DNA from: Cellulomonas hominis
GTDB lineage: Bacteria > Actinomycetota > Actinomycetes > Actinomycetales > Cellulomonadaceae
Length of the DNA: 64,000 nt
Assembly: GCF_014201095.1 (NCBI RefSeq)
Contig: NZ_JACHDN010000001.1
Span: forward strand, 3,782,001-3,846,000
Direction: 5' to 3'
Below the pieces are notes generated by a model that was not told the DNA's origin, did not search any database, and was given only the letters and a program-made list of their open reading frames with translations. This document shows positions 501-38,363 of the stretch, piece after piece. A program made the translations under genes and the position numbers. Positions within the stretch are counted from its first letter, which is position 1; the number at the start of each line of letters is the position of its first letter.

Positions 501-509
501 GCCGCACAT
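501..509 (+). promoter_or_regulatory. GCCGCACAT promoter motif, leaderless start at 519
   Basis: Exact GCCGCACAT, with the ATG at 519 starting 10 bases after its last T. No ribosome-binding site lies between them. See the finding on the element-wide promoter. Confidence 0.7.
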
Positions 510-518
510 CTACCGGGC

Positions 519-953
519 ATGAGCACCACGACCCCTGCCCGACACCCCGCGGGCGTGCGCACCGGCGGGCAGTTCGCTGCCACCGCCCGCGCCGAGGCGC
601 CGCTCGACCTGGGCGTCCCCGACGCGCCTCAGGTCGACGCCGTCAACGGCCTCGTGCCCCGGCTCAACGCCGCCGGCCGCTGGTACCTCGCCGACCAGGC
701 CACCGGCAAGCCCGTCCTGCGTGACGCCCAGCGCGCCCGCGGCTCGCACGCGACGCTCGACGACGCCATGCGCTGGGCCGAGCACACCTACCCGCTCGTG
801 GTCCGGGTCGCCGACAAGCTCGAGCGGCGCCACCCGGTCCTCACGCCGACGTGTCCGGACTGCGCCACCACCATGGTGCACGAGGTCGACGACGAGCGGC
901 CCCGGCCTGCGCCGGTGTGGGTCTGCCCGGTGTGCGACGCCCCCGCGCGCTGA
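519..953 (+). CDS. GGQF-tag protein with C-terminal zinc ribbon
   Basis: 144 residues. The N-terminus carries the motif HPAGVRTGGQF followed by A-x-A-R-A-E, which recurs almost unchanged in the protein at 27144-27965 of the same element. The C-terminus has two CxxC pairs (Cys112/115 and Cys136/139) spaced like a zinc ribbon. The middle is helical and charged. The start is set by the promoter motif: ATG 519 has no ribosome-binding site but sits at the fixed leaderless distance. Function unknown; the shared N-terminal tag suggests both proteins bind the same partner or are processed alike (inference). Confidence 0.8.
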   Translation: MSTTTPARHPAGVRTGGQFAATARAEAPLDLGVPDAPQVDAVNGLVPRLNAAGRWYLADQATGKPVLRDAQRARGSHATLDDAMRWAEHTYPLVVRVADKLERRHPVLTPTCPDCATTMVHEVDDERPRPAPVWVCPVCDAPAR

Positions 954-992
954 TCCGCGACACGCCGGCAGAACTGGCATCGGGAATTCGCT

Positions 993-1020
993 GGCCAGCG
1001 CCGCGGCGGTGTCATACAGT
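993..1020 (+). promoter_or_regulatory. second-class promoter (GGCCAGCGC, then TACAGT)
   Basis: GGCCAGCGC at 993-1001, then a good -10 hexamer TACAGT at 1015-1020. The same arrangement, including the flanking CA and TC, is found at 14371-14399 before the surface-protein gene. It would give a transcript reaching the small gene at 1065. Confidence 0.5.
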
Positions 1021-1064
1021 CGATCCGGACGCCAGTCCAGCAGACGATGAAGGAGGTGCCGACC

Positions 1065-1184
1065 GTGGATCGCAACGTGACCCTGACCAGCGGATCGCAC
1101 ACCCCTGCCATCGTCCGCGCCTACGCCGAGTCCAACCACGTCCAGCGGTGGTTCAGGCTCCCGGTGGAGGCGACCTTGACGTAG
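1065..1184 (+). CDS. 39-residue hypothetical protein
   Basis: A short gene supported by a strong ribosome-binding site, AAGGAGG at 1050-1056, eight bases before GTG 1065, and by the class-2 promoter just upstream. The product (starting MDRNVTLTSGSH) is polar, with a VQRWFRLPVEATL-like C-terminal half. It has no membrane segment and no recognised family. An in-frame ATG at 1047 is an alternative start but would place the ribosome-binding site inside the gene. Confidence 0.55.
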   Translation: MDRNVTLTSGSHTPAIVRAYAESNHVQRWFRLPVEATLT

Positions 1185-1262
1185 CGCGAACGGAACGCCC
1201 GGACGCTACGAGAGGCCGCCCCTGCCAGCGCAGACGGGCGGCCTTTCCTGTTCCTGGGGGAT

Positions 1263-1271
1263 GCCGCACAT
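1263..1271 (+). promoter_or_regulatory. GCCGCACAT promoter motif before tRNA-Trp
   Basis: Exact motif. The expected transcript start is 1281, 45 bases before tRNA-Trp, so here it would drive an RNA gene. A short ATG-started frame (1279) ends inside the tRNA and is not believable as a protein gene. Confidence 0.6.
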
Positions 1272-1325
1272 ACACACGATGGCGACACCAAGCAGCCAGC
1301 CCGGCGCCGCCGCACAGAACGACCT

Positions 1326-1797: not shown

Positions 1798-3135
1798 GTG
1801 TAGGCGGTCACCGCGTGATTCTTCGAGAGACCTACCAAGTCGACTCGAGAGAAGGACCCGCGATGACCGCTGGACCCAGTCTGGACCCTGCCCGCTTCCT
1901 GCACGAGCACCTGAGCACGGCCAGCCCCGACCTGCTGCGCGAGCTGCTGGGCGTGTTCATCGACACCCTGATGGGCGCCGAAGCCGACGCGATCTGCGGC
2001 GCTGACTACGGCTCCCGCTCTGCGGAGCGGACCAACGTGCGCAACGGCTACCGGCACCGCGACTTCGACACCCGGGTCGGCACGATGGACGTGGCGATCC
2101 CCAAGCTGCGCGCCGGCACCTACTTCCCCGACTGGTTGCTAGAGCGCCGCCGGCGCGCGGAGGCGGCGCTGACTAGCGTCGTTGCAACCTGCTACCTCCT
2201 GGGCGTCTCGACCCGGCGGATGGACAAGCTCGTCGAGTCGCTCGGGATCACCAGGCTGTCGAAGTCCCAGGTCTCGCGGATGGCCGCGGACCTGGACGAG
2301 CAGGTCGCCGCGTTCCGCACCCGTCCGCTGGACGCCGGCCCCTACACGTTCGTGGCGGCCGATGCCCTGAGCGTGAAGGTCCGTGAGGGCGGACGGGTGG
2401 TCAACATCGCGGTCATGGTCGCGACCGGGGTCAACGCCGACGGGCACCGAGAGATCCTGGGCATCGACGTGTCCACCGCGGAGGACGGGGCCGGGTGGTT
2501 GACGTTCTTCCGAGACCTGACCGCCCGCGGCCTGACCGGGGTCAAGCTGGTGACCTCTGACGCGCACTCCGGGCTGGTCGCCGCGATCGGCGCGACCCTG
2601 CCCGGCGCGACCTGGCAGAGGTGCCGCACCCACTACGCGGCGAACCTGATGTCGACCTGCCCGAAGTCCTCCTGGCCGTGGGTCAAGACGCTGCTGCACA
2701 GCGTCTACGACCAGCCCGACACCGACGCGGTCCACGCCCAGTTCGACCGGCTGCTGGACGCCGTCGCCGACAAGCTCCCGGCCGTCGCGGACCACCTCGA
2801 AGCGGCCCGGGCCGACGTCCTGGCGTTCACGTCCTTCCCGAAGGAGGTCTGGCGCCAGATCTGGTCCAACAACCCGAACGAGCGTCTCAACCGCGAGATC
2901 CGCCGCCGCACCGACGTCGTGGGGATCTTCCCCGACCGCACCTCGATCATCCGCCTGGTCGGAGCCGTGCTCGCGGAGCAGCACGACGAATGGGCCGAAG
3001 GACGCCGCTACCTCGCCCTGGACGTTCTTGGCCGATCCCGGCTCACTGCCCTGCCAGACCCGCCGGAGGTGACCACGCCCCAACTCCCGGCGCTCAGCGC
3101 CTGAACCCGAAGATCACGCGGAAGCCGTCACACAC
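1798..3135 (+). mobile_element. IS256-family insertion sequence
   Basis: The element is bounded by imperfect inverted repeats at 1798-1819 and 3113-3135. Both contain the block CCGCGTGAT and an outer GTGT in mirrored order. It carries a single transposase gene. I could not find a convincing target duplication, so the exact ends are approximate. Confidence 0.8.
1863..3104 (+). CDS. IS256-family (Mutator-type) transposase
   Basis: 413 residues, full length for the family. It is a DDE transposase that cuts and joins the IS ends. The likely catalytic residues are Asp in FVAADALS, Asp in LVTSDAHSG and Glu in the family signature around NPNERLNREI, which continues into RRTDVVGIFPD. A zinc-like CxxH (QRCRTHYAANL) lies between. 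Start ATG 1863 follows GAGAAGGA. A longer frame from 1725 crosses the inverted repeat and is unlikely. The gene looks intact. It separates tRNA-Trp from the rest of the array. Confidence 0.95.
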   Translation: MTAGPSLDPARFLHEHLSTASPDLLRELLGVFIDTLMGAEADAICGADYGSRSAERTNVRNGYRHRDFDTRVGTMDVAIPKLRAGTYFPDWLLERRRRAEAALTSVVATCYLLGVSTRRMDKLVESLGITRLSKSQVSRMAADLDEQVAAFRTRPLDAGPYTFVAADALSVKVREGGRVVNIAVMVATGVNADGHREILGIDVSTAEDGAGWLTFFRDLTARGLTGVKLVTSDAHSGLVAAIGATLPGATWQRCRTHYAANLMSTCPKSSWPWVKTLLHSVYDQPDTDAVHAQFDRLLDAVADKLPAVADHLEAARADVLAFTSFPKEVWRQIWSNNPNERLNREIRRRTDVVGIFPDRTSIIRLVGAVLAEQHDEWAEGRRYLALDVLGRSRLTALPDPPEVTTPQLPALSA

Positions 3136-3537: not shown

Positions 3538-3538
3538 G

Positions 3539-4172: not shown

Positions 4173-4181
4173 GCCGCACAT
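4173..4181 (+). promoter_or_regulatory. GCCGCACAT promoter motif at a tRNA-like RNA
   Basis: Exact motif. The expected start, 4191, coincides with the first paired base of the cloverleaf candidate at 4191-4269, so the RNA would need no 5' trimming. Confidence 0.6.
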
Positions 4182-4190
4182 AGGCACTTC

Positions 4191-4269
4191 GAGCGAGAGA
4201 CCCCGCCGCAGTGGTAGCGGGGCGAGCCGGGCACATGCACCCGGCCACGATGCGGACCCGTGTCGCTCG
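4191..4269 (+). ncRNA. tRNA-like cloverleaf, CAT in the anticodon-like loop
   Basis: Outer stem GAGCGA/TCGCTC. The three inner arms are CCCCG/CGGGG (D-like), GCCGGG/CCCGGC with loop CACATG(CA), and CACG/CGTG (T-like). The anticodon-position loop has eight bases instead of seven, and the T-like loop TGCGGAC is not canonical. It may be a divergent tRNA-Met, a decayed tRNA or a tRNA mimic. The 5' end matches the promoter prediction exactly. Confidence 0.4.
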
Positions 4270-4449: not shown

Positions 4450-4521
4450 GGGGGGCCATGTCCTTGGTGGCGACTGATCCTTGCAAGATCGGTGCGGCGG
4501 GTTCGATCCCCGTGCTCTCCA
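4450..4521 (+). tRNA. tRNA-Ala (TGC)
   Basis: Acceptor GGGGGGC/GCTCTCC with G-U pairs, anticodon stem TGATC/GATCG, loop CTTGCAA (TGC), T loop TTCGATC. No encoded CCA. The D arm is somewhat divergent. Confidence 0.85.
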
Positions 4522-11139: not shown

Positions 11140-11148
11140 GCCGCACAT
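11140..11148 (+). promoter_or_regulatory. GCCGCACAT promoter motif, leaderless start at 11158
   Basis: Exact motif with ATG 11158 at the fixed distance (start codon 10 bases after the final T). Confidence 0.7.
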
Positions 11149-11157
11149 ACGCAGGCC

Positions 11158-11547
11158 ATGGCCTCCATCACCTGCCCGCGCCCGGGCCTGCCGGTGCCGC
11201 CCGACGGCACGCCGCTGCCGACGCGGGTGAAGCTCCTGCTGACCCCGATCGCCCCGGTGCGGGCCCCGCAGCGGGCCGCTGACGGCGCGTGGCTGTACGC
11301 CCCGTTCGTCCTCAAGGTCGAGTTCGGGGTCGCGGTGGTCCAGTTCGACCTCGACGAGGGCGCCTTCTACGCCTGCATCGACCCTCAGGCCCCCGCGGGC
11401 ATGACCGACGAGCAGGTCGAGGCTGCCTGCAGCTGGTCGCTGCAGGTGTGGTCGAGCGTGTACCACGAGCTGCTGCTCGGCGGGCGGGATCACCTGCGCC
11501 TGTGGGCCCAGGCTGCGGGGATCGGCGTCTGGGAGTCCACCGACTGA
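11158..11547 (+). CDS. hypothetical protein, 129 residues
   Basis: A soluble protein beginning MASITCPRPGLPVPPDG, with a beta-rich middle (PFVLKVEFGVAVVQFDLDEGAFYACID) and a C-terminal helix (EQVEAACSWSLQVWSSVYHELL). ATG 11158 is chosen over a much longer upstream frame because it sits at the leaderless distance from the promoter motif. It is followed 22 bases later by tRNA-Cys. Family unknown. Confidence 0.75.
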   Translation: MASITCPRPGLPVPPDGTPLPTRVKLLLTPIAPVRAPQRAADGAWLYAPFVLKVEFGVAVVQFDLDEGAFYACIDPQAPAGMTDEQVEAACSWSLQVWSSVYHELLLGGRDHLRLWAQAAGIGVWESTD

Positions 11548-13689: not shown

Positions 13690-13698
13690 GCCGCACAT
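13690..13698 (+). promoter_or_regulatory. GCCGCACAT promoter motif with 43-base leader
   Basis: Exact motif. The expected start is 13708. The leader contains a GCCCCG/CGGGGC hairpin and a GAGGAG ribosome-binding site before ATG 13751, so this copy is not leaderless. That argues for a promoter rather than a translation signal. Confidence 0.65.
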
Positions 13699-13750
13699 GT
13701 ACCAGGCGAGCCCCGGCACCCCGTCGGGGCTCCAACCAGAGGAGACGACG

Positions 13751-17215: not shown

Positions 17216-17264
17216 GGCGCTCCGCTTCCTGGATGTCGACCCTCTTGGTCGAGCTGGCATGCAG

Positions 17265-17273
17265 ATGTGCGGC
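17265..17273 (-). promoter_or_regulatory. GCCGCACAT promoter motif on the minus strand
   Basis: The only minus-strand copy, and it precedes a minus-strand gene. The expected start is 17255, leaving a 39-base leader with a ribosome-binding site before ATG 17215. The strand agreement supports promoter function. Confidence 0.65.
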
Positions 17274-17392
17274 ACGCAGCGCGCTTGGGACGTTCGGCGC
17301 CGGAACGTCCCGGAGCGGCGGAGGGCGGGGCGCCGGCCGCCGCAGCGGGAGTGGTGCTCGCGGGCACGTGCGAGGACCGCCTGCCGCACATC

Positions 17393-17401
17393 TACGAAGC
17401 A
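17393..17401 (+). promoter_or_regulatory. GCCGCACAT motif, upstream of a tandem pair
   Basis: Exact motif with expected start 17411. No gene begins there; the next copy is 100 bases downstream. It may be a second promoter for the exonuclease gene, giving a longer GC-rich leader. Confidence 0.5.
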
Positions 17402-17492: not shown

Positions 17493-17501
17493 GCCGCACA
17501 T
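17493..17501 (+). promoter_or_regulatory. GCCGCACAT promoter motif, leaderless start at 17511
   Basis: Exact motif, with ATG 17511 at the fixed leaderless distance. Confidence 0.7.
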
Positions 17502-17510
17502 ACGAACCTC

Positions 17511-18269
17511 ATGACGCACACCGCCACGTACCCCGAGAAGGCCCTGGTCTGGACCGACGTCGAGACCACAGGCACGGTCGCCCACCGCGGTCATCTGCTG
17601 CAGATCGCGATCCTCGTCACCGACCTGGACCTCAACGTGCTGGAGGAGACGGGGTACGAGGCGACCGTGGGCTACACCGCCGAGCAGTCCGCCGCGATGC
17701 GGGACGCAGCCGACCCCATCGTGCGCGACATGCACGACACGAACGGCCTGTGGAACGCGATCACCGACCCGACGACGACGAAGTCCACCACCACCATCGC
17801 GGCGGAGGCACTGGCGTACGTGCAGCAGCTCGTGCCCGAGCGGCGAACCGCCCGCATGGCCGGCAACTCCCTGCGCCTGGACCTCAACTTCGTCGAGGAG
17901 CACTTGCCCCCGCTCTACGAGCACCTGCACTACCGCATGCTCGACGTGTCCTCGTGGACCGGCCCTGCCCAGTGGTGGGCCGGGATCGAGCCGATGCCGA
18001 AGGCCCGCAACCACACCGCCATGGCCGACATCCGCGAGTCGATCGAGGAGATGCGGTTCGTGCGGCGTGCGCTCGGGCTCGAGCCCCACGGCGGGATGCT
18101 CACCCTCCGCGAAGCCGCCAGTGCGCTGGGCGTGTCCAGGTCCACCGCCGACCGGATGGTGGAGGCCGGCACCCTGCCCATCGCGGTGCGCACGCTCGGC
18201 GGACACCGCCGCTTCGACCCCGAGACGGTCCGCGAGCTTCTCTCGGCGCGCGCAGGGGCCGCCGTCTAG
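17511..18269 (+). CDS. oligoribonuclease-type exonuclease fused to an HTH domain
   Basis: 252 residues. Residues 1-190 are an oligoribonuclease (Orn)-like DEDDh 3'-5' exonuclease: WTDVETTG (Asp16, Glu18), an Asp in SLRLDLNFVEEHLP, and the His/Asp end in NHTAMADIRESIEEM, very close to the Orn signature. Orn degrades short RNAs, including pGpG. Residues 196-252 are an added excisionase/MerR-type helix-turn-helix (TLREAASALGVSRSTADRMV through GGHRRFDPETVRELL). Host Orn proteins lack this domain. The fusion could tether the nuclease to DNA or couple nuclease and regulator. No ribosome-binding site; leaderless promoter. Confidence 0.88.
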   Translation: MTHTATYPEKALVWTDVETTGTVAHRGHLLQIAILVTDLDLNVLEETGYEATVGYTAEQSAAMRDAADPIVRDMHDTNGLWNAITDPTTTKSTTTIAAEALAYVQQLVPERRTARMAGNSLRLDLNFVEEHLPPLYEHLHYRMLDVSSWTGPAQWWAGIEPMPKARNHTAMADIRESIEEMRFVRRALGLEPHGGMLTLREAASALGVSRSTADRMVEAGTLPIAVRTLGGHRRFDPETVRELLSARAGAAV

Positions 18270-20558: not shown

Positions 20559-20567
20559 GCCGCACAT
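20559..20567 (+). promoter_or_regulatory. GCCGCACAT promoter motif, leaderless start at 20577
   Basis: Exact motif, with ATG 20577 at the fixed distance. Confidence 0.7.
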
Positions 20568-20576
20568 GAGGCAGGC

Positions 20577-20978: not shown

Positions 20979-20981
20979 GGC

Positions 20982-21311
20982 ATGAGCCGCGAGACCGCGC
21001 CGATCCTCGGGCCGACCTGCATGATCTGCCTGCGCCCGGAGGGCGACCACCCCGCCCGCATCGCCCACAACACGTGCCTCGTGACGTTCGACGCCGCCCG
21101 CTCCACGTACGCCCAGGGCGAGGATCGTGCACGCCTGGCGCTGTGGCCGGCCGAGGCGTGGGAGGCCTACCGCCGCCTGCACCGCCTGACCGCCGACCGC
21201 TACCAGGCCGCGCCCTCCCCGGAGGTCGCCGCCTGGGTGCAGCGCCTGAGGGACGAGCTCGCCCGCGCCGGCACCGGGTCGCTCTACCAGCACCCGGTCG
21301 GCCTGTGGTGA
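20982..21311 (+). CDS. hypothetical protein with CxxC, 109 residues
   Basis: The N-terminus has TCMICLRPEGDHPARIAHNTC, a small Cys/His cluster that may bind zinc. The rest is helical (EAWEAYRRLHRLTADRYQ, EVAAWVQRLRDELARAG). Its stop TGA overlaps the GTG start of the Dam-like gene by four bases, so the two are coupled. It may assist the methyltransferase (inference). Confidence 0.75.
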   Translation: MSRETAPILGPTCMICLRPEGDHPARIAHNTCLVTFDAARSTYAQGEDRARLALWPAEAWEAYRRLHRLTADRYQAAPSPEVAAWVQRLRDELARAGTGSLYQHPVGLW

Positions 21312-22319: not shown

Positions 22320-22328
22320 GCCGCACAT
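22320..22328 (+). promoter_or_regulatory. GCCGCACAT promoter motif, leaderless GTG at 22338
   Basis: Exact motif, with GTG 22338 at the fixed distance. This shows GTG is also used. Confidence 0.7.
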
Positions 22329-22337
22329 CTACCCGGC

Positions 22338-22991
22338 GTGCCGCCCACCTTCGCCGACCGCCCCTTCACGACCACCGACGCCCACCCCGGCCTGACCGAG
22401 CTCGCCGGCGCCGGCTTCCAGGTCGTCGTGGCCGACCCGCCCTGGATGTACCAGAAGGCGCCCGGAGCCAAGGCCGGGGGAGCGGGCCCGAGAGTGACGG
22501 CCGAGCGCAAGTACCCGACCATGACCAACGAGGCCATCGCCGCCCTGCCGGTCCGCGACCTCGCCGACGACGACGCCCACCTGTTCCTGTGGTTCACCAA
22601 CCCTGGCATGTTCGGCAACAGGTTCTCCGACCTCGACCCCGAGGACATCGCCACCGCCTGGGGGTTCGAGTTCCGGACCGTGCTCACCTGGGTCAAGACC
22701 ACGCAGGCCGGGACGGTGCACGGCGGCGGCATGGGCTGGTACTTCCGGGGCGCGACCGAGCACGTCCTGTACGCCACCCGCGGCCGGGCCAGGATCCCCT
22801 CCGAGCTGCGCGAACCGAACGTCATCCTCGCCCCGCGGGCTGCGCACTCGGCCAAGCCCACGGCGTTCATGGAGCTGGTCGAACGGGTCACCCCCGGCGC
22901 GCGGCGCCTGGAGATGTTCGCCCGCAGCCCGCGCCCGGGCTGGGCCGCCTGGGGCAACCAGGCCAGCGGCAACGCCCTGCCCGCTGCGTGA
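22338..22991 (+). CDS. MT-A70-family adenine methyltransferase
   Basis: 217 residues. The catalytic motif VVVADPPWMYQ (DPPW) and the following YPTMTNEAIAALPVRDL are typical of bacterial and phage MT-A70 enzymes. HLFLWFTNP and LTWVKTTQAG are the next conserved strands, and PTAFMELVERVTPG precedes the C-terminal EMFARSPRPGW motif. It methylates adenine in DNA or RNA; the family alone does not say which. GTG start fits the leaderless promoter. Confidence 0.93.
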   Translation: MPPTFADRPFTTTDAHPGLTELAGAGFQVVVADPPWMYQKAPGAKAGGAGPRVTAERKYPTMTNEAIAALPVRDLADDDAHLFLWFTNPGMFGNRFSDLDPEDIATAWGFEFRTVLTWVKTTQAGTVHGGGMGWYFRGATEHVLYATRGRARIPSELREPNVILAPRAAHSAKPTAFMELVERVTPGARRLEMFARSPRPGWAAWGNQASGNALPAA

Positions 22992-22995: not shown

Positions 22996-23004
22996 GCCGC
23001 ACAT
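22996..23004 (+). promoter_or_regulatory. GCCGCACAT promoter motif with short leader
   Basis: Exact motif. Expected start 23014, then a 37-base leader to ATG 23051 containing CGGGGAG. Confidence 0.65.
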
Positions 23005-23050
23005 ACGCACCTGGACAGCACTTTCGCGCGGAACCCGGGGAGCCCACCCC

Positions 23051-24297: not shown

Positions 24298-24306
24298 GCC
24301 GCACAT
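24298..24306 (+). promoter_or_regulatory. GCCGCACAT promoter motif, leaderless start at 24316
   Basis: Exact motif, with ATG 24316 at the fixed distance. Confidence 0.7.
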
Positions 24307-24315
24307 AGGGCAACC

Positions 24316-25254
24316 ATGAGCGCTCTCGTCACGCCCCTGGCCATGGGCCGGCGCGCGCACGCGCGCCCGCCCACCCCGGTGCCCGCGCCGCCGCGCGCCG
24401 CGCTCGCGCTGCGCAGCATGTCCAAGCGGGTCGTGGTGTGGGCTTGCGTCGCGGACACCGACCCGGAGCCGATGACCGGGCAGATCGACGTCGCCGAGAC
24501 CGGAGGAGGCGATCCCCACGCCTCTGCGTTCGCCGCGGCCCTGCCGACGATCCTCGCGCAGATCGAGCCCTGGCTCGCCCGGCTGGCCTCAGGCACCAGC
24601 TTGCGGCTGGCCGAGCTCGCCGTGCTGAACCCGACCCTGCGCCAGCGTCTGCGCGAGGGGCCCCCGCTCGACGGCGTGCTGGTCCTGCCGGCATCCGAGG
24701 TCACTGAGGCGAACGCGACCGTGGGCGCCGCACGCCAGCTCGTGGAGCAGCTGCACCGAGACGTCATCGCCCCCGGCCGGGAGGCCACCGTCGAGGTCGC
24801 CGTCGGTGCCTCCGTTCGCGCCCACCACCGCGACGCCGGGGTCGCCTGGGCGCGTGCCGACGGCCTGTACGAGACCCGCGTGGTCGATGCCAGCGACCAG
24901 ACCGCTGCGCTGGTTCGAGCGATCGTCCTGGCCGTCCGGGCGCACCGCCGTCACGAGGGCCGGCTCGAGGTGGTGTGCTCCAGCCGCGCCGCCGTGTCGC
25001 TCGCGCGGGACGCGCTGACCGGGCGCCCCCTCTCATCGCACAGGGCGCGGGCCGCCGCACAGCGCGCACTGGCAGATCTCGACACCGCGGGAACGGTGCG
25101 CATCGTGCGCGCGGGCGGGGGCGGGATCTCGCGAGCGGCCGCTCGGCTGGCCACCGTCGCGCGGCACAACCACGAGGCGGGAGTCGCCGGGCCCGAGCAC
25201 GAGCGACGGGCCGCCGCAGCCCTCGCCGACGAGCTGGGGCGACCGGCGCCCTGA
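24316..25254 (+). CDS. hypothetical protein with possible RNase H-like part
   Basis: 312 residues. The N-terminal 100 residues are Pro/Arg-rich then helical. Around 180-240, VAWARADGLYETRVVDASDQTAALVRAIVLAV followed by RLEVVCSSRAAVSLARDAL recalls the RNase H fold order (strand, helix, strand with an acidic residue), but the first catalytic Asp is not obvious. It may be an inactive nucleic-acid-binding relative. Leaderless start. Confidence 0.6.
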   Translation: MSALVTPLAMGRRAHARPPTPVPAPPRAALALRSMSKRVVVWACVADTDPEPMTGQIDVAETGGGDPHASAFAAALPTILAQIEPWLARLASGTSLRLAELAVLNPTLRQRLREGPPLDGVLVLPASEVTEANATVGAARQLVEQLHRDVIAPGREATVEVAVGASVRAHHRDAGVAWARADGLYETRVVDASDQTAALVRAIVLAVRAHRRHEGRLEVVCSSRAAVSLARDALTGRPLSSHRARAAAQRALADLDTAGTVRIVRAGGGGISRAAARLATVARHNHEAGVAGPEHERRAAAALADELGRPAP

Positions 25255-25258: not shown

Positions 25259-25267
25259 CCCGCACAT
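25259..25267 (+). promoter_or_regulatory. promoter motif variant CCCGCACAT
   Basis: The only near-match (first G replaced by C). Expected start 25277, with a 32-base leader to ATG 25309 containing GAGGGG. Confidence 0.5.
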
Positions 25268-25308
25268 CTAGGGGGCAACCGCAGACCGACGAGGGGCAGC
25301 ACCCGCAG

Positions 25309-27125: not shown

Positions 27126-27134
27126 GCCGCACAT
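27126..27134 (+). promoter_or_regulatory. GCCGCACAT promoter motif, leaderless start at 27144
   Basis: Exact motif, with ATG 27144 at the fixed distance. Confidence 0.7.
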
Positions 27135-27143
27135 CTACCGAGC

Positions 27144-27965
27144 ATGACCAGCTTCGAAGGCGTGCACCCGCGCCAGGGTGCCGGCGTGTCCACCGGCGGG
27201 CAGTTCGTGACGAAGGCTCGGGCGGAGGTGGCGCTCGACCTCGAGGCCGTGCACCACGGGCACGGCACCACACTGGTCGAGCAGGCGCGCGAGCTCTGGC
27301 ACCTCTGGCAGGGCGGTGCGATCGAGGAGTACACGCGGCTGGAGCGGGAAGTCCTGGCGTCCGTGCCGCACCTCGACACGAGCCTGGTCGCCGACGACTT
27401 CTACCACCCCATGCTGCAAGCCCTGGCCGACGGCAAGGCCCACGAGGCGGAGAGCCTCGGGCGACGGCTGGACGTCATCGCCGAGCGGGAGCGCGCCTGG
27501 CGAGAAGGCGGCTACACCCCGCCCACCTTCACCAAGGATGAGCAGACCTCAGGCCCGGTGACGTACCGCAAGTCGACCGGCAGCAACTACACCGGGTACC
27601 GCGACGTGACGGCGATCGCGAAGGACGTGCGCGCCGACCTGCGTGCGGCGCAGCGTGCCGGCTTCATCCCGCCCGACGTGACAATCTCGGTGCGGTCCTC
27701 GAAGTACGCGGGCGGGCAGGCCCTCGACCTTCGGGTGGAGGGCCTCAGCGAGGACGACCAGTTCCAGCGCCGCTCGCCCCTGGACCCCTCCTGGCAGCGC
27801 CGCTACAGCGCCTACGCGCACCAGGTCCGGGACCGGGTCAAGGCCATCGCGTCCGCCTACTCCCACGACGACACCAGCAGCGAGACCGACTACTGGAACG
27901 TCACCTACTACTGCAACGTCACTCTCGCCGACCCCGCACCGGTGACCGACGGGGTGCTGCTGTGA
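27144..27965 (+). CDS. GGQF-tag protein with LPD29-like C-terminal domain
   Basis: 273 residues. The N-terminus has HPRQGAGVSTGGQF then KARAEVALDL, closely matching the protein at 519-953. The C-terminal 130 residues (VTAIAKDVRADLRAAQRAG, VTISVRSSKYAGGQALDLRV) follow the pattern of the LPD29-type domain of phage and conjugative polyvalent proteins: an AK-x-x-R-x-D-L helix then SVRSSxYxGGxxLxV. Function unknown. Its stop overlaps the GTG of the RuvC-like gene, so the two are coupled. Confidence 0.75.
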   Translation: MTSFEGVHPRQGAGVSTGGQFVTKARAEVALDLEAVHHGHGTTLVEQARELWHLWQGGAIEEYTRLEREVLASVPHLDTSLVADDFYHPMLQALADGKAHEAESLGRRLDVIAERERAWREGGYTPPTFTKDEQTSGPVTYRKSTGSNYTGYRDVTAIAKDVRADLRAAQRAGFIPPDVTISVRSSKYAGGQALDLRVEGLSEDDQFQRRSPLDPSWQRRYSAYAHQVRDRVKAIASAYSHDDTSSETDYWNVTYYCNVTLADPAPVTDGVLL

Positions 27966-29070: not shown

Positions 29071-29079
29071 GCCGCACAT
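29071..29079 (+). promoter_or_regulatory. GCCGCACAT promoter motif, leaderless dnaE start at 29089
   Basis: Exact motif, with ATG 29089 at the fixed distance. It links polymerase expression to the element-specific promoter set. Confidence 0.7.
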
Positions 29080-29088
29080 ACCCCTGAC

Positions 29089-32000
29089 ATGGCCGAGAGC
29101 ACCACGCGCGGGTTCGTGCACCTGCACACGCACACCGAGTACAGCCCTCTGGACGGCATGGGCCGCATGTCCGATCTCGTCAAGGCTGCGGCCGCGGACG
29201 GCAACCCGGCGTTCGCGGACACCGACCACGGGACGCTGGCCGGCGCGTGGAAGCTCCGCAAGTTCTGCAAGGCCGCCGGGATCAAGGCGATCCCGGGGTG
29301 CGAGGTCTACATGGCGATCGGCTCCCGGTTCAAGCCCGAGACGATCCTCGTCGACGCCGACGACGAGTCCGGGGACGCGATCGACGACGAGAAGGGCACC
29401 AAGGGCGCGCTCGGGGAGACCCGCAAGAAGAAGAAGATCTACGAGCACCTCACGCTGTTGGCCTACACCCCCGAGGGGTGGCGGAACCTGGTGCGCCTGC
29501 ACAACAGCGCCCAGGCGACGTACTCGCCCGGCGGCGGCGGGCTCGCCAAGCCGCAGCCGCTCATGGACTTCGACCTCCTCGAGAAGTACCGCGAGGGCAT
29601 CATCGTCCTGACCGGCTGCCTCGGCGGAGGCGTGGCCGGAGCCCTCGTGCGCGCGCACAAGGACCCCACCCACGCCGGCGAGCACCGTGCCGCTGCCCGC
29701 TCGTACCTGACGAACCTGGTCCGCATCTTCGGCGACGAGAACGTCTTCGTCGAGGTGATGGACCACGGCATCCCGGACCAGCACCTGATCACCGAGGACC
29801 TCCGGGCGATCGCCGGCGAGTTCGGGCTGCGCATGGTCGCGACCAACGACTCCCACTACACCCACGAGCGCCACAGCAAGGCACACGAGGCGTGGCTCGC
29901 CGTGGGCACCAAGAAGGTCCTGTCCAGCGAGAAGCGCTTCAAGTTCCACGGGCACGGGCACCACCTGCGCACCGAGGCCGAGATGCGCGCCCTGTTCGGC
30001 GGCGAAGCGTGGTGGCAGGCGGCCTGCGACGCCACCGTCGAGATCGCCGACCGGGTGCACCCCGACATCTTCGGGGAGACGCGCCTGCGCCTGCCCGTGT
30101 ACCCGGTGGCCCAGCTCAACCCCGAGTTCCGTCCGCAGAACGTCGACCACGACGACACGCGCGCGATGTCCAACGCCTACTTCCGGTTCCTGGTCTCCAA
30201 GGGCGCCCGCGAGCGGGAGGGTCTCGCCCCGGACGAACGGCTCTCGGCGGAGGTGAACAAGCGGATCGCCTGGGAGTACAACGTCATCGTCACGATGGGC
30301 CTGGCGGACTACTTCCTCATCGTCCGCGACGTCATCGAGTGGTGCCGCTCCACCCGCGGGCTGCCCACCAAGGCCTACCCGAAGGGCCGCGAGGGCCAGA
30401 AGAAGCCCATCCGCGTCGGCCCGGGCCGCGGGTCCGCCGCCGGCTCGTACTGCTCCTACGCGCTGGGCATCGTGCTGCCGCACCCGATCAAGAACGGGCT
30501 GCTGTTCGAGCGGTTCCTGGACCTGCTGCGCGTCGGCATGCCCGACGTCGACGTCGACTTCGAGCAGGGGCGACGCCCCGAGGTCATCGCCTACCTCGTG
30601 GCGATGTGGGGCTCGGACCGCGTCGCCCAGATCGGCACCTTCGGGATGGCGCGCACCAAGGCCGCGATCAACGACGCCGCCCGCGTGCTGGAGAAGCAGG
30701 CGCTGGGCGACAAGCTCTCCAAGCTGGTCCCCATCGAGGGCGGCAAGCCGGCCTCGATCGCCTCGCTGACCGACGATGCGTTCCTGCCGGGGCGCGACTT
30801 CCGCGCGCTGGTCGCCAAGTCGGGCGAGGACGCCACCGCGATCCTCGAGCTCGCATCCGCCTTCGAGGACGTCATCAAGACCCCGGGCATCCACGCCTCC
30901 GGGGTCCTCATCGCCGACGAGCCGATGTTCGACCTGGTCCCGCTGCGGCGCAGCGCGCGCGGCAAGGGGGCCGCGCTCAACGCCCCGATGATCACCGAGT
31001 GGGACGGGGTCGACTGCGACGACTACGGGCTGCTCAAGCTGGACGTGCTCGGGCTGCGCAACCTCGACGTCGTCCAGTTCACCGTCGACTCCATCAAGGC
31101 CACCACCGGTGAGGACGTCGAACCGGCCGACATCGACCCCGACTGCGGCGACGAGCGCGCTCAGGCCGCGTGGGCACTGCTGCGCGCCGGGCGCACCGCG
31201 GGGGTGTTCCAGATGGAGTCCGAGGGCATGACCAAGCTCGCCATGGACTCCGGACCGACGTGCCTGGACGACCTGTCGACCATCGTCGCCCTCTACCGGC
31301 CCGGGCCCCTCGGCCAAGGCATGGACAAGCACTGGGCTGCTCGCAAGCGGGGGACCGAGCCCCTGGACTACGGGATCTTCACCGACGACCGGGACGAGCA
31401 GGCCGCCATCGCGGCGGTGCTCGACGAGTCGCTGGGCGTGCCCGTGTTCCAGGAGCAGTCGATGCGTCTGGGCGACGTGGTGGCCGGCTTCGGCCCGAAC
31501 ACCAGGAACCGGCTGCGCAAGGCCATCTCCAAGAAGAAGAAGGACGAGATCGCCGCCGTCGGCGAGCTGTGGATGGAGAACGCCTCCAAGGGCGTCTCGA
31601 ACGAGACCGGGGAGCCCAAGGTCGCCTTCCGGCCCTCCAGCGCCCAGAACCTGTGGGACGCGATCAAGTCCGCCGGCGAGTACCAGTTCAACAAGTGCTT
31701 GGCGGGCGAGACCGTCGTCACGACCGGTCGGCACACCGATCACGAGGTGGCGGCGCTGTACCGGCGCCTGCACGCCTCGGATCGGCGCGCTGACGGGATC
31801 TGCCCCGCGTGTCTGCAGCGTCCGTCCCGGATCAAGACGGTCCTGTGCGACCCGTGCAGGCAGTGGCGAGCGATGTTCAACGGTCGCGGGTTCCACGTCC
31901 TGTCCTACGACTTCGCCGACGGGCGGATCCGCCCCAAGCGGGTCAAGGACGTCCACTTCAACGGTCGCCGCGAGGTCTACCGGATCACCCTCGCTGACGG

Positions 32001-33882
32001 CCGGACCATCCGGGCGACCGGCAACCACCGCTTCCTCGTGCAGGGCGGCTGGGTGCGCGTCGAACACCTGTCACTCGGCGACGAGCTGATGACCAGCGAG
32101 GGCTACGAGGCCCAGCAGTGGGACGGCTCCTACCGGCTGACCACCGGCGAACGTCAGGGGGCCCCCGGTCGCCTGTACGCACCCGGATCGGAGAACGTCG
32201 GCTACGTCGACGGCGGCCACGTCGCCCTGGCCGAGTGGACCGAGGCCACCCGGCAGGGCTCCGCGTGCGCTGCATGCGGCGTGAGCGGCGTCCGCCTCGA
32301 GCGCGCGCACCTCGACGGCGATCGGACCCACAACGCGCCGGGGAACCTCGCGTGGCTGTGCGTCAGCCACCACAAGGAGCACGACTACGAGGTCAACGGC
32401 CGCCGCCGGAAGTGGGAGAAGGGCTACGCGACCGGCACCTCGGCGATCGTGAGCATCGAGGCCGACGGCGTCACCGACACCTACGACCTCGAGATGGACG
32501 ACGAGGGCCACAACTTCATCGCCAACGGCATCGTCTCGCACAACAGCCACACCACCGCCTACGGTCTGCTGGCGTACTGGACCGCCTGGCTCAAGGCGAA
32601 CTGGCCTGCCGAGTTCGCCGCCGCGATCCTGGCCGCCACCGAGAGCGCCGACAAGCGCGCGAAGGCGATCCTGTCCATCCAGCAGGAGGGCATCGAGCTG
32701 CTGGCTCCGGACATCAACGTCTCCGGCGCTGCCACCCAGCCCGAGGGCGCCTCTGCGGTCCGGTTGGGGCTCTCGGAGGTCCGGGGCGTGGGCGCCAACG
32801 CGGCCGTGATCGTCGCTGAGCGGGAGGCGAACGGCCCCTTCACCGGCCTGGCCGACCTGCTCCTGCGGGTGCACGCTGCCCCGAAGGCCGCCGCAGACAC
32901 CGAGGCGGACCAGGAGCAGGAGCAGGAGGACGAGGCCGAGGTGGACCAGGCGACCGCGGAGGTCGGTGCGATCCTGCCGGTCAACGTCGTGGAGTCGCTC
33001 GTCGCAGCCGGCGCGCTGGACTCGTTCGGGCCGCGCCGCGGCCAGATGATGATCTCCCGGGCGATCCGCGAGCACCCCGACCTCGCAGTGCCGGACGTGG
33101 ACTGGGGGCTCCTGGAGCGATCGGGACGTCAGCGCATCGCGATCGGCGTCATCACCGGGCAGCATCCGCTGTCCCAGCTCGGAGCGCAGCTGCGCTCGTA
33201 CACCACCCCGAACGGGAGGTACGCACGCCCGGTCTCGACGGTCCACGCCGCCGCCGAGCGCGAGCAGGTGCTCCTGCTCGGCGTTCTCGCCGGGTACTCC
33301 GAGAAGGCCTACTCCAAGGGCCGCATGGCCAAGATCACCCTCGAGGGCACCCGCGGCGCCATCGACGGGGTGATGTGGGACGACGACCGTCAGCGGGTGG
33401 CTTTCGAGCCCGCAGTCGGTCAGGTGGTGGCCATCTCCGGCACGGTCCGCGTCCGCGAGATCGAGGTTGAGGACGAGGCGGGCGAGGTCGAGATCGTCTC
33501 GCGGCGCGAGCTGACCTTCCGCGACATGTGGCTTGTCCCGGTCGAGGACCCGGTCGTCAACCGCTTCGCCCTGGAGACCGACGAGCTCGCGATCGCCCCG
33601 GAGCGGATCGAGGAGGCTCCCGTCGCGGTGCTGTCGCTACCGTCGGCCGGGCCCCTGGAGGTGTACGCGCCACGGCTGCCCGAGGCGGTTGTGGCGACCC
33701 TCGGGCGGGCGCTGTACGACTGCCCGTGGACCGGCACGGACGTGGCCGGCGGGGTGTGGCTGTTCGGGCGCGGCCCGGATGCCGTCATCGTGACCGTCGG
33801 CAAGGTCACGGTCCACGCCCTGGAGAACGCGCGCGACCTCGCTCGCGCCAACAGCACGGACGGCTGGGTGCAGGCGGCGTGA
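29089..33882 (+). CDS. dnaE: DNA polymerase III alpha subunit with intein
   Basis: 1597 residues; about 1314 remain after removing a 283-residue intein, slightly longer than chromosomal DnaE1. Order: PHP domain with FVHLHTHTEYSPLDG (His11, His13, His15); palm with active site MPDVDVDFE at about 484-492 and the GRGSAAGS motif just before; fingers with EYQFNK-intein-SHTTAYGLLAYWTAWLKA; then helix-hairpin-helix and OB-fold region (ITLEGTRGAIDGVMWDD). It copies DNA and suggests the element replicates with its own polymerase. Leaderless start. Without splicing the fingers would be disrupted. Confidence 0.95.
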   Translation: MAESTTRGFVHLHTHTEYSPLDGMGRMSDLVKAAAADGNPAFADTDHGTLAGAWKLRKFCKAAGIKAIPGCEVYMAIGSRFKPETILVDADDESGDAIDDEKGTKGALGETRKKKKIYEHLTLLAYTPEGWRNLVRLHNSAQATYSPGGGGLAKPQPLMDFDLLEKYREGIIVLTGCLGGGVAGALVRAHKDPTHAGEHRAAARSYLTNLVRIFGDENVFVEVMDHGIPDQHLITEDLRAIAGEFGLRMVATNDSHYTHERHSKAHEAWLAVGTKKVLSSEKRFKFHGHGHHLRTEAEMRALFGGEAWWQAACDATVEIADRVHPDIFGETRLRLPVYPVAQLNPEFRPQNVDHDDTRAMSNAYFRFLVSKGAREREGLAPDERLSAEVNKRIAWEYNVIVTMGLADYFLIVRDVIEWCRSTRGLPTKAYPKGREGQKKPIRVGPGRGSAAGSYCSYALGIVLPHPIKNGLLFERFLDLLRVGMPDVDVDFEQGRRPEVIAYLVAMWGSDRVAQIGTFGMARTKAAINDAARVLEKQALGDKLSKLVPIEGGKPASIASLTDDAFLPGRDFRALVAKSGEDATAILELASAFEDVIKTPGIHASGVLIADEPMFDLVPLRRSARGKGAALNAPMITEWDGVDCDDYGLLKLDVLGLRNLDVVQFTVDSIKATTGEDVEPADIDPDCGDERAQAAWALLRAGRTAGVFQMESEGMTKLAMDSGPTCLDDLSTIVALYRPGPLGQGMDKHWAARKRGTEPLDYGIFTDDRDEQAAIAAVLDESLGVPVFQEQSMRLGDVVAGFGPNTRNRLRKAISKKKKDEIAAVGELWMENASKGVSNETGEPKVAFRPSSAQNLWDAIKSAGEYQFNKCLAGETVVTTGRHTDHEVAALYRRLHASDRRADGICPACLQRPSRIKTVLCDPCRQWRAMFNGRGFHVLSYDFADGRIRPKRVKDVHFNGRREVYRITLADGRTIRATGNHRFLVQGGWVRVEHLSLGDELMTSEGYEAQQWDGSYRLTTGERQGAPGRLYAPGSENVGYVDGGHVALAEWTEATRQGSACAACGVSGVRLERAHLDGDRTHNAPGNLAWLCVSHHKEHDYEVNGRRRKWEKGYATGTSAIVSIEADGVTDTYDLEMDDEGHNFIANGIVSHNSHTTAYGLLAYWTAWLKANWPAEFAAAILAATESADKRAKAILSIQQEGIELLAPDINVSGAATQPEGASAVRLGLSEVRGVGANAAVIVAEREANGPFTGLADLLLRVHAAPKAAADTEADQEQEQEDEAEVDQATAEVGAILPVNVVESLVAAGALDSFGPRRGQMMISRAIREHPDLAVPDVDWGLLERSGRQRIAIGVITGQHPLSQLGAQLRSYTTPNGRYARPVSTVHAAAEREQVLLLGVLAGYSEKAYSKGRMAKITLEGTRGAIDGVMWDDDRQRVAFEPAVGQVVAISGTVRVREIEVEDEAGEVEIVSRRELTFRDMWLVPVEDPVVNRFALETDELAIAPERIEEAPVAVLSLPSAGPLEVYAPRLPEAVVATLGRALYDCPWTGTDVAGGVWLFGRGPDAVIVTVGKVTVHALENARDLARANSTDGWVQAA
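31696..32544 (+). other. intein (HNH-containing) inside dnaE
   Basis: Residues 870-1152 of the DnaE product. Starts with Cys1 (CLAGETVVTTG), has the block-B-like ATGNHRFLVQGGWVRVEHL, and ends GHNFIANGIVSHN before Ser+1. The centre holds an HNH nuclease: CAACGVSGVRLERAHLDGD, then NLAWLCVSHHKEHDYEV. The N-terminal part also has two CxxC pairs (CPACL, CDPCR). The insertion point is FNK/SHTTAY, three residues past the well-known cyanobacterial split DnaE site. Confidence 0.93.
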
Positions 33883-33929: not shown

Positions 33930-33938
33930 GCCGCACAT
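33930..33938 (+). promoter_or_regulatory. GCCGCACAT promoter motif with 50-base leader
   Basis: Exact motif. Expected start 33948, before the gene at 33998. Confidence 0.65.
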
Positions 33939-33997
33939 AGACCCCTCAGAGCGCGCGACTCGCGCAGCCTGCCGAAACGACCCTGCTGGAGCACCAC

Positions 33998-35284: not shown

Positions 35285-35293
35285 GCCGCACAT
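35285..35293 (+). promoter_or_regulatory. GCCGCACAT promoter motif with long leader before ssb
   Basis: Exact motif. Expected start 35303, leaving an 85-base leader to ssb at 35388. Confidence 0.6.
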
Positions 35294-35387
35294 ACGAGAC
35301 GTGCGGGACAAGTCCCGCCGGTTGACCGCCGATCAGGTCGCACAGGTAGAGCCGGATACGAACCGGACGTACAGCAGGAGGAAGTAC

Positions 35388-35969: not shown

Positions 35970-36002
35970 TCTCGGCGCATGTTCTGGTGGGGAGGAGGTG
36001 GC

Positions 36003-36800
36003 ATGCGCTACGTGAGTGTGTTCGTCGGGCTCGCCCTGGCGCTGGTCGGGGTGGTCGCGGCTGGAGGCGGCCTGCAGGGCCCGGTCGCCGGGATCGCAGA
36101 GCTGCGGCAGTGGATGGTCGCGGTGGCGATCCTGATCGTGCTCGGCGCGCTGACCCAGCGGCTCCGTGGCGCCGCAGTGGGCAGGTGGTCGGGCGCGGTC
36201 GACCCGCAGCGCATGTACTCACCCGAGCAGCGACGCGTGATCCACGAGCGCGCCGGCGGCCAATGCGAGTACACCGGGTGGGGCTGGCAGCGCTGCCGGT
36301 CGGCATCCGAGCACGCCGATCACCTGCACCCGCACGCCAAGGGCGGCGCGACCTCGCTGCGCAACGGGGTCGCAGCCTGCGCGCACCACAACACCTCGAA
36401 GGGGGCGAAGGTGCTCGCGCGCTCGAAGATCCGCTCCCTGGAGCGGCGTAGGCGGCGCTACTTCCCGAAGGGCGTCGATGTCCGGGTGGGGGAGATGTAC
36501 GACCTGGCCACCACGCGACGCGACGAGGGTCGCGTCGGTGCCGCGACCGCCGCGACACCACGCCGCGGACCCGGCGTGCCTGCCATGGCGTCGCCTCCGG
36601 TCCGCGTTCCGCCTGCGACCCCGGTGGTCGTTCCCGGGTGGGACGAGGTCGCTGAGGACCCGAGCGACGATACGGCGCCCTGGGGCTCGGCTCCTTCCGC
36701 CTCGCAGCCGGGCGCGACCCGGCCCGGGCCGTCGGCTGGGCACCGAGACACCGGCGGGCCGGCCCCGGGGACACGCCCGCCGGCGCCACCGCTGTGGTGA
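36003..36800 (+). CDS. membrane-anchored HNH endonuclease-like protein
   Basis: 265 residues. Two membrane segments lie at about 4-25 and 37-55 (VFVGLALALVGVVAAGGGL, WMVAVAILIVLGAL). An HNH domain follows at 75-130: GGQCEYTGWGWQRC (Cys pair), SEHADHLHPHAKGG (His), NGVAACAHHNTSKGA (Asn, His). The last 100 residues are a Pro/Gly/Ser-rich tail. ATG 36003 has GGAGGAGG four bases upstream. A nuclease held at the inner membrane could act on incoming DNA, for example against superinfection (inference). Confidence 0.85.
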   Translation: MRYVSVFVGLALALVGVVAAGGGLQGPVAGIAELRQWMVAVAILIVLGALTQRLRGAAVGRWSGAVDPQRMYSPEQRRVIHERAGGQCEYTGWGWQRCRSASEHADHLHPHAKGGATSLRNGVAACAHHNTSKGAKVLARSKIRSLERRRRRYFPKGVDVRVGEMYDLATTRRDEGRVGAATAATPRRGPGVPAMASPPVRVPPATPVVVPGWDEVAEDPSDDTAPWGSAPSASQPGATRPGPSAGHRDTGGPAPGTRPPAPPLW

Positions 36801-36909
36801 CGATCCCGCACCTGATGAGCCATCCGATGGACGTACCGCCAGATCGGCGCCTCCGGGGTCGTCACGGCCCCTAGGGTCGGCAGCACCAAGGTGACCGGCG
36901 GAGGAGCGC

Positions 36910-36990
36910 GTGGAGCCGATCGAGATGCACTTCCGCCAGCGCGCCCCGGTCGACGACACCGAGGTGCCGCCCGAGCGGTGCGGCGCGTGA
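36910..36990 (+). CDS. 26-residue peptide coupled to the CoiA-like gene
   Basis: GTG 36910 follows GGAGGAGCGC. The product starts MEPIEMHFRQRAPVDD. Its stop TGA overlaps the GTG start of the next gene by four bases, as at four or more other junctions in this element. It may be a translational leader rather than a functional protein. Confidence 0.5.
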   Translation: MEPIEMHFRQRAPVDDTEVPPERCGA

Positions 36991-38078
36991 CTGCCCGGCA
37001 CTCGCCGGCGCAGATCGCCGCATTCGCCGCGGGGGAGTCGGCTCAAGTCGTGGCGCGCGACCGCCGGGACGCGGCCCTCGTGTTCCTCCCGCGTGGGCAG
37101 GCCGACTCCGTGCGCGCCGTGGCCGTCGAGCACTACGAGTGCCCTATCCCGGGCTGCGACTCGCCGGTGCCGCTGTCGACCCGCGGCGGCTCGAAGCGCG
37201 ACCACTTCTGGCACCGGCGCCCGCACGCGCACCCGGGCGGGCCCGAGTCGTTGCACCACTTCCAGGCCAAGCATCTGGTCGCACAGTGGGCGCGCGCAGC
37301 CGCGGCCGCCGGTGGGGTGGAGGTAGCGGTCAACGAGGAGGAGTGGTCCTCGGACGTCCGCAGGCGACCTGACGTCCTGGCGACGTGGCCGGACGGCAGT
37401 CGCGTCGCCTTCGAGGTCGAGTACAAGTCCTTCCCGGTCGCCGCGTGGCGAGCGAAGGACGATGCCTACAGGGCTGCCGGCATCGTCCCAGTGTGGCTGT
37501 TCGGCCACACCCCTGAGCGCTACCTCAAGCCCGAGCGGCGCGCCGGGCGCGCGCGAGGCGAGGGGGAGCCGCCGGCGTTCCGCCTGACGGCGATCACGGC
37601 CTGTGCTGCCGAGCGCGGGCCGGTGCTGTTCATCAACCCGGTGCTCGGCCTGGTCGGGACGCTGTGGGACCGCGGCGAGGATCTCGAGACGGTGCGGGCA
37701 GAGGACCGGCGCTGGTTCATCTCGCGAGGTCGCAGGGTGGGCGATCCGCGCGCCGTCTCACCGAACCGGGACGCCAGCTTCGACCTCGCGCTCAGCGAGC
37801 TGCGTGCGTGCGCCCTCGACGTCAGCCGCGGGCTGGTGACGCCCACCATGTCGGCGATCGAGGTGGAGGCCCGTCGTGTGCAGGACGCCGCAGCCGCAGA
37901 CCGGGTGGCCATCACGTCGGCGGCGCGGGCAGCGCGTGCCAGTGGCCGGCGCGCGGTGGCTCGGCAGGTACGTTCTGTGGTCCCCGCGCCGCCCAGCGCG
38001 CCCGGCGCGCGATGCCGGGTCTGCGGGAACGAGCTCGACCCCATCCTCGCCGCCGCCGGCCGCCACGTCCTGTGCTGA
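36987..38078 (+). CDS. CoiA-like nuclease-fold protein
   Basis: 363 residues. N-terminal zinc-like YECPIPGCDSPV and KRDHFWHRRPHAH, then HHFQAKHLVAQW, and the PD-(D/E)XK core RRPDVLATW followed by VAFEVEYKSF and later VPVWLFGHTPERYL. This order is that of competence protein CoiA. The C-terminal third is helical and ends with CRVCGNELDPILAAAGRHVLC (two more Cys pairs). Roles in CoiA relatives are DNA uptake or recombination; here a DNA-processing role on the element is likely. Start by coupling at GTG 36987. Confidence 0.82.
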   Translation: MTARHSPAQIAAFAAGESAQVVARDRRDAALVFLPRGQADSVRAVAVEHYECPIPGCDSPVPLSTRGGSKRDHFWHRRPHAHPGGPESLHHFQAKHLVAQWARAAAAAGGVEVAVNEEEWSSDVRRRPDVLATWPDGSRVAFEVEYKSFPVAAWRAKDDAYRAAGIVPVWLFGHTPERYLKPERRAGRARGEGEPPAFRLTAITACAAERGPVLFINPVLGLVGTLWDRGEDLETVRAEDRRWFISRGRRVGDPRAVSPNRDASFDLALSELRACALDVSRGLVTPTMSAIEVEARRVQDAAAADRVAITSAARAARASGRRAVARQVRSVVPAPPSAPGARCRVCGNELDPILAAAGRHVLC

Positions 38079-38150
38079 GCCTGGTGAACCCGGGCGCGAG
38101 ACCCGGCTCGGTGGCTGAGAGGCGACCAGTGGGCCAGTCCTGCTGTGGGT

Positions 38151-38159
38151 GCCGCACAT
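38151..38159 (+). promoter_or_regulatory. GCCGCACAT promoter motif, leaderless GTG at 38169
   Basis: Exact motif, with GTG 38169 at the fixed distance. The last copy before the integrase. Confidence 0.7.
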
Positions 38160-38168
38160 CTACAGGCC

Positions 38169-38363
38169 GTGGAAGACCAGCACCCGACCCCGGCAGCAGA
38201 GCCTCAGGACCGGACCGACCCGGTCGGTGAGTCCGCCGCGTTCTGGCAGAAGGAGTTCGATGCCGCGGAGCCGCGGCCGATGGATCCTGCCGATGCTCAT
38301 CTCGCAGTGACGTTGATGGGCCAGTCGTCTGCCCCCGCGCGCACGCCGCGCCGGGCAAGCTGA
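38169..38363 (+). CDS. 64-residue acidic hypothetical protein
   Basis: A short polar protein (starting MEDQHPTPAAEPQDRTD, with FWQKEFDAAEPRPMDPADAHLAVTLMG). It ends seven bases before the convergent integrase gene stop. The start rests on the leaderless promoter spacing. It is placed where a recombination directionality factor might be, but nothing in the sequence proves that. Confidence 0.6.
   Translation: MEDQHPTPAAEPQDRTDPVGESAAFWQKEFDAAEPRPMDPADAHLAVTLMGQSSAPARTPRRAS

Follow-up and report, generated by a model that had tools for sequence, protein, structure and literature searches.

Recurrent compact motifs with a fixed start distance as likely promoters of a giant integrated element in Cellulomonas hominis, and a predicted sigma factor as their candidate reader

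We analysed a stretch of 64,000 nucleotides from Cellulomonas hominis (the window hereafter; G000, positions 3,782,001-3,846,000 of C1, the single contig of a 4.49 Mb genome), which holds the right-hand part of a giant integrated element and a short motif repeated along it; 384 kb surrounding the window were read for element-wide counts. The element (~302 kb) ends in a duplicated gene segment, at about 3,519,250-3,519,370 and 3,821,837-3,821,957, an offset of 302,587 bp. At the right end of the element, the window carries a large serine recombinase on the minus strand (38370-39755; Resolvase, Recombinase and zinc-ribbon matches) and, on the plus strand, the 3′ portion of the target gene that the element interrupts (39846-40223), with a similar segment at the left element end. 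Judging from its sequence, the target appears to be a SpoU/TrmH-type RNA methyltransferase gene. The element encodes a DNA polymerase III alpha (29089-33882) with an intein, a NAD ligase, an anaerobic ribonucleotide reductase, a primase-like protein, two T2SSE pilus-type ATPases, PilM and an AAA_10 ATPase, the last presumably VirB4-like. The intein-like insert of the polymerase spans approximately residues 927-1152.

Eighteen exact copies of the 9-mer GCCGCACAT were found in the window, 17 on the plus strand and one on the minus strand, all within positions 501-38159, and none in the right-hand 24 kb of host DNA; a near-copy, CCCGCACAT, lies at 25259. Shuffled windows are expected to hold 0.89 copies, and none of 100 shuffles attained 18. 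These counts reproduce those of an earlier interpretation made from the letters alone (the sequence-only reading), which had proposed an element-wide promoter with a fixed distance to leaderless starts. At ten predicted promoters, given here from the motif to the predicted start and lying on the plus strand, the start is an ATG or GTG exactly where that reading had placed it: 501-519 (ATG, 144-codon open reading frame (ORF)), 11140-11158 (ATG, 129 codons), 17493-17511 (ATG of a 252-codon exonuclease/helix-turn-helix gene), 20559-20577 (ATG, 133 codons), 20964-20982 (ATG, 109 codons), 22320-22338 (GTG, 217 codons), 24298-24316 (ATG, 312 codons), 27126-27144 (ATG, 273 codons), 29071-29089 (ATG of the polymerase III alpha gene, 1597 codons including the intein) and 38151-38169 (GTG, 64 codons), which is the final copy before the right element end. 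At further plus-strand sites the predicted start opens a leader: 13690-13708 (43 nt, with a Shine-Dalgarno-like stretch before ATG 13751), 22996-23014 (37 nt, ATG 23051), 33930-33948 (50 nt, ATG 33998), 35285-35303 (85 nt, ATG 35388) and the near-copy at 25259-25277 (purine at 25277, leader, ATG 25309). The site at 17383-17401 has a purine and no start codon at 17401. The sole minus-strand copy (17255-17273, start 17255) precedes a minus-strand gene, as had been noticed before, with a 40-nt leader.

The two remaining predicted promoters precede or sit within a tRNA array. ARAGORN placed 24 tRNAs and a transfer-messenger RNA (tmRNA) between window positions 1326 and 13113, and listed one doubtful tRNA in the window; Rfam at gathering scores gave 19 tRNAs and no tmRNA between 1000 and 14500. 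The site at 1263-1281 (plus strand) has its start 45 nt before tRNA-Trp (1326). The start of the other, at 4173-4191 (plus strand), had been read as a tRNA-like 5′ end; neither program supports this, the next tRNA according to ARAGORN beginning at 4450. Within the array there is also a 413-residue ORF (1863-3101) that matches another, at L024:3164-4402, in both length and coding score; the two are presumably copies of one transposase.

We then compared the element with the rest of the genome. The complete genome holds 61+61 copies of GCCGCACAT on its two strands against 34+36 of the reversed control. Ninety-five exact copies lie in the element, spanning 3,519,671-3,820,151, and 27 in the remaining ~4.2 Mb. 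Only 2 copies were counted in a 300-kb host sample and 1 in 81 kb of flank; therefore the 9-mer is not equally common in host DNA, which was the observation that the sequence-only reading had named as fatal to its proposal. A substitution scan refined the motif. In the element, ATG or GTG (RTG) was kept at its place in 22 of the 37 copies changed at -18, counting the predicted start as +1, and in 2/63 for the remaining single changes pooled; the corresponding values in the 300-kb host sample were 0/6 and 2/74. The initial base of the 9-mer is thus dispensable, with a preference of G>C>T, and the invariant core is the 8-base CCGCACAT at -17 to -10, of which the element has more than 120 copies. 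The motif proposed earlier stands in this shortened form, without its first base as an essential part. A weight matrix built from the exact copies, at a cut-off that admits 3 sites in the 300-kb host sample, found 131 element sites, with RTG at +1 in 82 and a purine at +1 in 124. Over the 131 sites, C at -12 and T at -10 occur in all, A at -11 in 130 and A or G at -7 in 120.

The fixed distance to the start holds across the element. After nine intervening bases, RTG follows 59 of the 95 exact copies (43 ATG, 16 GTG, no TTG), against no more than 7/95 for any of the other offsets between 0 and 30 (binomial P 4e-67). ORFs beginning at the 82 RTGs of the weight-matrix sites have a median of 207 codons, compared with 79 for random RTGs. 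As to orientation, the position 150 nt downstream of the 131 sites falls in a same-strand gene in 112 cases, in an opposite-strand gene in 3 and in none in 16. In mycobacteria, leaderless translation needs no more than an ATG or GTG at the 5′ end, which is well supported (PMC4633059), and the lack of TTG at +1 fits leaderless starts for this reason. There the leaderless genes have host promoters; here they would share one element-wide promoter.

A fixed distance to start codons could also come from a signal for translation initiation, or from a repressor site, instead of a promoter, and start-associated sequences and stoperators are known from phages. The 36 copies that do not abut a start codon speak against this: a purine is still found at +1 in 32 of them (P 1e-6), and the composition at -19, -9, -8, -7, -3 and -1 is alike in the RTG and non-RTG classes. 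Of the 36 non-RTG copies, 23 have the next called gene starting at a distance of 17-51 nt, in every case with a Shine-Dalgarno-like stretch (in some cases four bases only), in line with the leaders and ribosome-binding sites noted earlier in the window; for the other 13 it begins beyond 51 nt. The gene calls are not independent of the motif, because calling scored a bonus for motif and Shine-Dalgarno stretch. Moreover, the copy at 1263 precedes a tRNA-Trp gene, and a repressor site would need no single exact offset. We regard a translational or repressor role as the least probable of the explanations weighed here, and a very unlikely one. Judged from the DNA, the motif is best read as a likely promoter whose start is fixed and often leaderless; the element-wide leaderless promoter proposed earlier is supported by 95 copies over ~300 kb, by the +1 purine and by the related elements described below.

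We next considered what kind of polymerase or factor would read such a promoter. The -10 hexamer of actinobacterial sigma A is TAnnnT, which the motif does not match at the 131 element sites, and no conserved hexamer or other -35 signal was found between -58 and -20 of the element copies; both points had been made for the window and are upheld element-wide. T7-type promoters are compact, have a strictly fixed start and lack a -35 element, and the resemblance would suit an element-encoded phage-type single-subunit RNA polymerase. Against such an enzyme, a regular expression for T7-type motif A found nothing among the called proteins, and PF00940 had no match in the genome, a result of limited weight given that the controls had none as well. 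Two large conserved proteins, 84 and 296, were tried as polymerases and rejected, since they gave no polymerase match. A phage-type polymerase seems highly improbable to us.

The sequence-only reading had left the choice between a dedicated sigma factor and a phage-type polymerase, neither visible in the window, and had pointed to the missing left part of the element. The polymerase was searched for and not found; a candidate sigma factor, gene 293 (368 residues, host genome 3,739,535-3,740,641), lies 41 kb left of the window. When a profile of the gene 293 family was compared with PDB, all five hits at E<=10 were sigma factors (best E 0.051). Pfam recognised Sigma70_r3 in 6 of 14 family members (best E 0.046) and Sigma70_r2 in 4. 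In a family profile search of 396 genomes, other proteins were matched over region 2 in 11 genomes, with E values from 6.9e-6 to 7.5e-4; eight of these genomes were checked, and in 8/8 the matched proteins were Pfam sigma factors. In structure comparison, sigma factors took the top three places in Foldseek and the highest structural Z, with sigma-28 chains among the best hits. A weak profile alignment (probability 11%) placed the family on host sigma A regions that we take to be 3.1-3.2. Region 4, which reads the -35 element, was not recognised in the family by the PDB profile, Pfam or host-sigma profile comparisons, and the absent -35 signal would fit a loss or change of this region. The signals for regions 2 and 3 are weak but convergent, and we predict that gene 293 encodes a sigma-70-type factor.

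A Pfam scan of the genome bears on another possibility, namely that host sigma factors read the promoters together with an element-encoded activator, for instance a WhiB protein. Sigma region 2 had 19 matches in the host and none in the element, and gene 293 therefore escapes that model at E<=0.001. The element does encode a clear WhiB, gene 288 (E 2e-25), which is conserved in the related elements of G132 and G476, and a WhiB is annotated on a Curtobacterium plasmid too. However, the bases that do not vary fall between -17 and -10, in the region contacted by sigma itself, and nothing is conserved upstream at the position of an activator. The motif is also not TAnnnT and stays at background level elsewhere in the host. 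We consider an activator working with host sigma factors unlikely, and return to gene 293 as the candidate reader.

We then followed the motif and gene 293 in relatives. Among 221 genomes of the family, the only outliers in counts of GCCGCACAT-N9-RTG were G000 (27+32), G124 (24+51), G132 (5+23) and G004 (9+2); among 396 genomes of the order, CCGCACA-N10-ATG singled out only G000 (23+36) and G476 (35+27), all others having at most 14. For an ortholog comparison we took G000 genes with the motif at most 140 nt upstream and with a homolog. In the 58 pairs obtained, an exact motif near the expected start was seen in 38, a one-mismatch motif in 7 and none in 13 (exact/one-mismatch/none: G124 17/5/3, G132 11/0/4, G476 10/2/6). 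Extending the search from the window to the full element and its relatives thus gave, besides the 95 exact copies, motif copies at many but not all orthologous genes of three related elements. After CCGCACAT, RTG stood in the exact position in 41/52 copies of G124, 36/68 of G132 and 24/67 of G476, and a purine at this place in 9/11, 23/32 and 24/43 of the non-RTG copies, respectively, the last being near chance. Base composition does not explain the motif, given that the G132 stretch has only 53-59% G+C. We also observed RTG one base further after CCGCACAT in 9/67 copies of G476 (L142-L148), 0/52 of G124 and 2/68 of G132.

Upstream of gene 293 itself, CCCGCACAT occupies positions -18 to -10 relative to the ATG in all four integrated elements read (G000, G132, G476 and G124). 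A tblastn search with gene 293 found relatives on 8 of 72,556 plasmids, all from Micrococcales (Pseudarthrobacter 2, Paenarthrobacter 1, Arthrobacter 2, Curtobacterium 3), and the same eight plasmids head the list of polymerase matches. The sigma-like gene is preceded by CCGCACA in 6/8 and by CCGCATA in 2/8 (two Curtobacterium plasmids), with ten bases from motif to ATG in 7/8 and nine in BIM B-2242. CCGCACA-N10-ATG occurs 82, 67, 79, 46, 22, 15, 76 and 16 times on the eight plasmids, against 0-1 for reversed controls; on five actinobacterial comparison plasmids without a gene 293 relative, picked from further polymerase hits, it occurs 0-3 times, with controls of 0-3. The co-occurrence of motif richness and gene 293 gave a Fisher P of 8e-4, for lineages that are not independent. 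The 82 sites are those of pACHL01 from Pseudarthrobacter chlorophenolicus A6, whose gene 293 homolog is WP_012623387.1 (L079:34066-35103), and the 22 sites those of Curtobacterium sp. MCSS17_016. The customary plasmid form of the motif is CCGCACACAT, near the element's own; GCCGCACAT had a single copy in seven plasmid loci, and CCGCACACAT was recognised only once the DNA preceding their sigma-like genes had been read. Among phage records, none encodes a gene 293 relative at E<=0.01, and a search of viral contigs gave 72 and 10 stretches with one match only in each. As for gene 273, it had no match in the plasmid collection; G205, G500 and G494 have a gene 273 relative yet show no motif excess, and the profile search found no gene 293 there.

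Two observations concern proteins and labels on these plasmids. On pACHL01 (L079:12199-15171), a 990-residue protein annotated as sigma-70 family appears by eye to combine a helicase, a sigma-70 factor and a helicase-associated repeat; it was considered as reader and set aside, tblastn with element proteins having met only its helicase-associated part. On a Curtobacterium plasmid, a 102-bp feature (L081:11286-11387) was labelled NDM-19 by a prediction tool, probably a database artefact. In addition, an N-terminal stretch of approximately RVPAGVRTGGQFA is common to many otherwise unrelated element proteins, including the sigma-like one (for example window 519-953), and was also found at L096, L144 and L079; it may serve as a tag for transfer or targeting.

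Seven genomes have the gene 293 family without an excess of CCGCACA, and these were read in part, 40-100 kb each. CCGTCAA occurs at the same offset in G167, with ATG in 9/22 copies, CCGCGCAT in G401 (ATG 5/16) and CCGCACG in two genomes of one genus, G245 (ATG 5/11) and G508 (3/14). The P values for these diverged motifs overstate their significance, because the forms were picked from the same data. The stretches read in G364, G427 and G344 showed no such motif. Each own form precedes the sigma-like gene in G167, G245 and G508, and not clearly in G401, G364, G427 and G344. Taking all 19 homologs examined, the sigma-like gene has the motif of its own element or plasmid exactly in place upstream in 14; in 1 the spacing is a base short, and in 4 the motif is not clear. 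The G167 stretches (L277-L281, C3:50001-150000) carry CGCATAGG besides and near CCCGTCAAC, both with fixed spacing, with ATG at one spacing in 7/12 copies of CGCATAGG; two motifs in one element could perhaps mean two factors.

From the observed copies, their spacing and orientation, their partial conservation, the missing -35 signal, the motif before the sigma-like gene and the co-occurrence on eight plasmids, we propose that the more than 120 copies of CCGCACAT, mostly nine bases before a purine, are likely promoters read by an element-encoded predicted sigma factor that would steer the host polymerase. The gene 293 protein would bind core RNA polymerase via region 2, use regions 2 and 3 to contact -17 to -10, and open the DNA for initiation at the +1 purine. 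Transcripts with AUG or GUG at the 5′ end would be translated leaderless, and the remaining ones would carry short leaders or be tRNA precursors. By activating its own gene, the gene 293 product could maintain a self-sustaining transcription programme of the element.

Known systems offer partial parallels, which we compared by description only. The nearest studied case is SigN (ZpdN) of Bacillus subtilis pBS32, a mobile-element sigma with its own promoter before its own gene: it is plasmid-encoded, weakly like extracytoplasmic function (ECF) sigma factors and self-activating, and, acting at one promoter sequence repeated many times, it drives the replication and nucleotide genes of the plasmid (PMC6751061). 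SigN promoters have -35 and -10 parts, with 19 tabulated and two of them only predicted; the element, in contrast, shows no -35, one fixed offset, many apparently leaderless starts and ~130 sites. For promoters without a -35 element, the nearest case is T4 late transcription, whose A+T-rich promoters differ in sequence from those of the element. There, phage-encoded gp55 redirects the host core polymerase, with a further need for gp33 and the sliding clamp gp45 (PMC2988020). The 9-mer GCCGCACAT also resembles the sigma-28 -10 octamer GCCGATAA and GCCGACAT of aer promoter fragments, as given in PMC2859248; sigma-28 promoters also have a -35 octamer, whereas none was seen in the element, and we treat the likeness as a lead only. 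A literature search of titles and abstracts, with subscription journals and preprints outside its scope, returned no description of the motif or of these plasmids' promoters.

Beyond C. hominis, we favour, with moderate confidence, the view that giant elements of Micrococcales share an unnamed family of self-activating sigma factors with exact-start promoters lacking a -35 element, whose lineage codes (CCGCACAT, CCGCACACAT, CCGCACGTA, CCGCGCATAT and CCCGTCAAC) diverge together with the factor and keep the same offset. If so, start sites, gene starts and operons of such elements could be mapped from sequence alone. The sigma/promoter pairs, which seem to have diverged together, would be useful for orthogonal promoters, and they would provide a test case for sigma factor function without a -35 element. 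If the proposal is true, more than 100 transcripts of a very large element, among them those of its replication genes, would pass through one promoter code, which stands at background level in the host and would be tied to one element-encoded factor instead of to host promoters.

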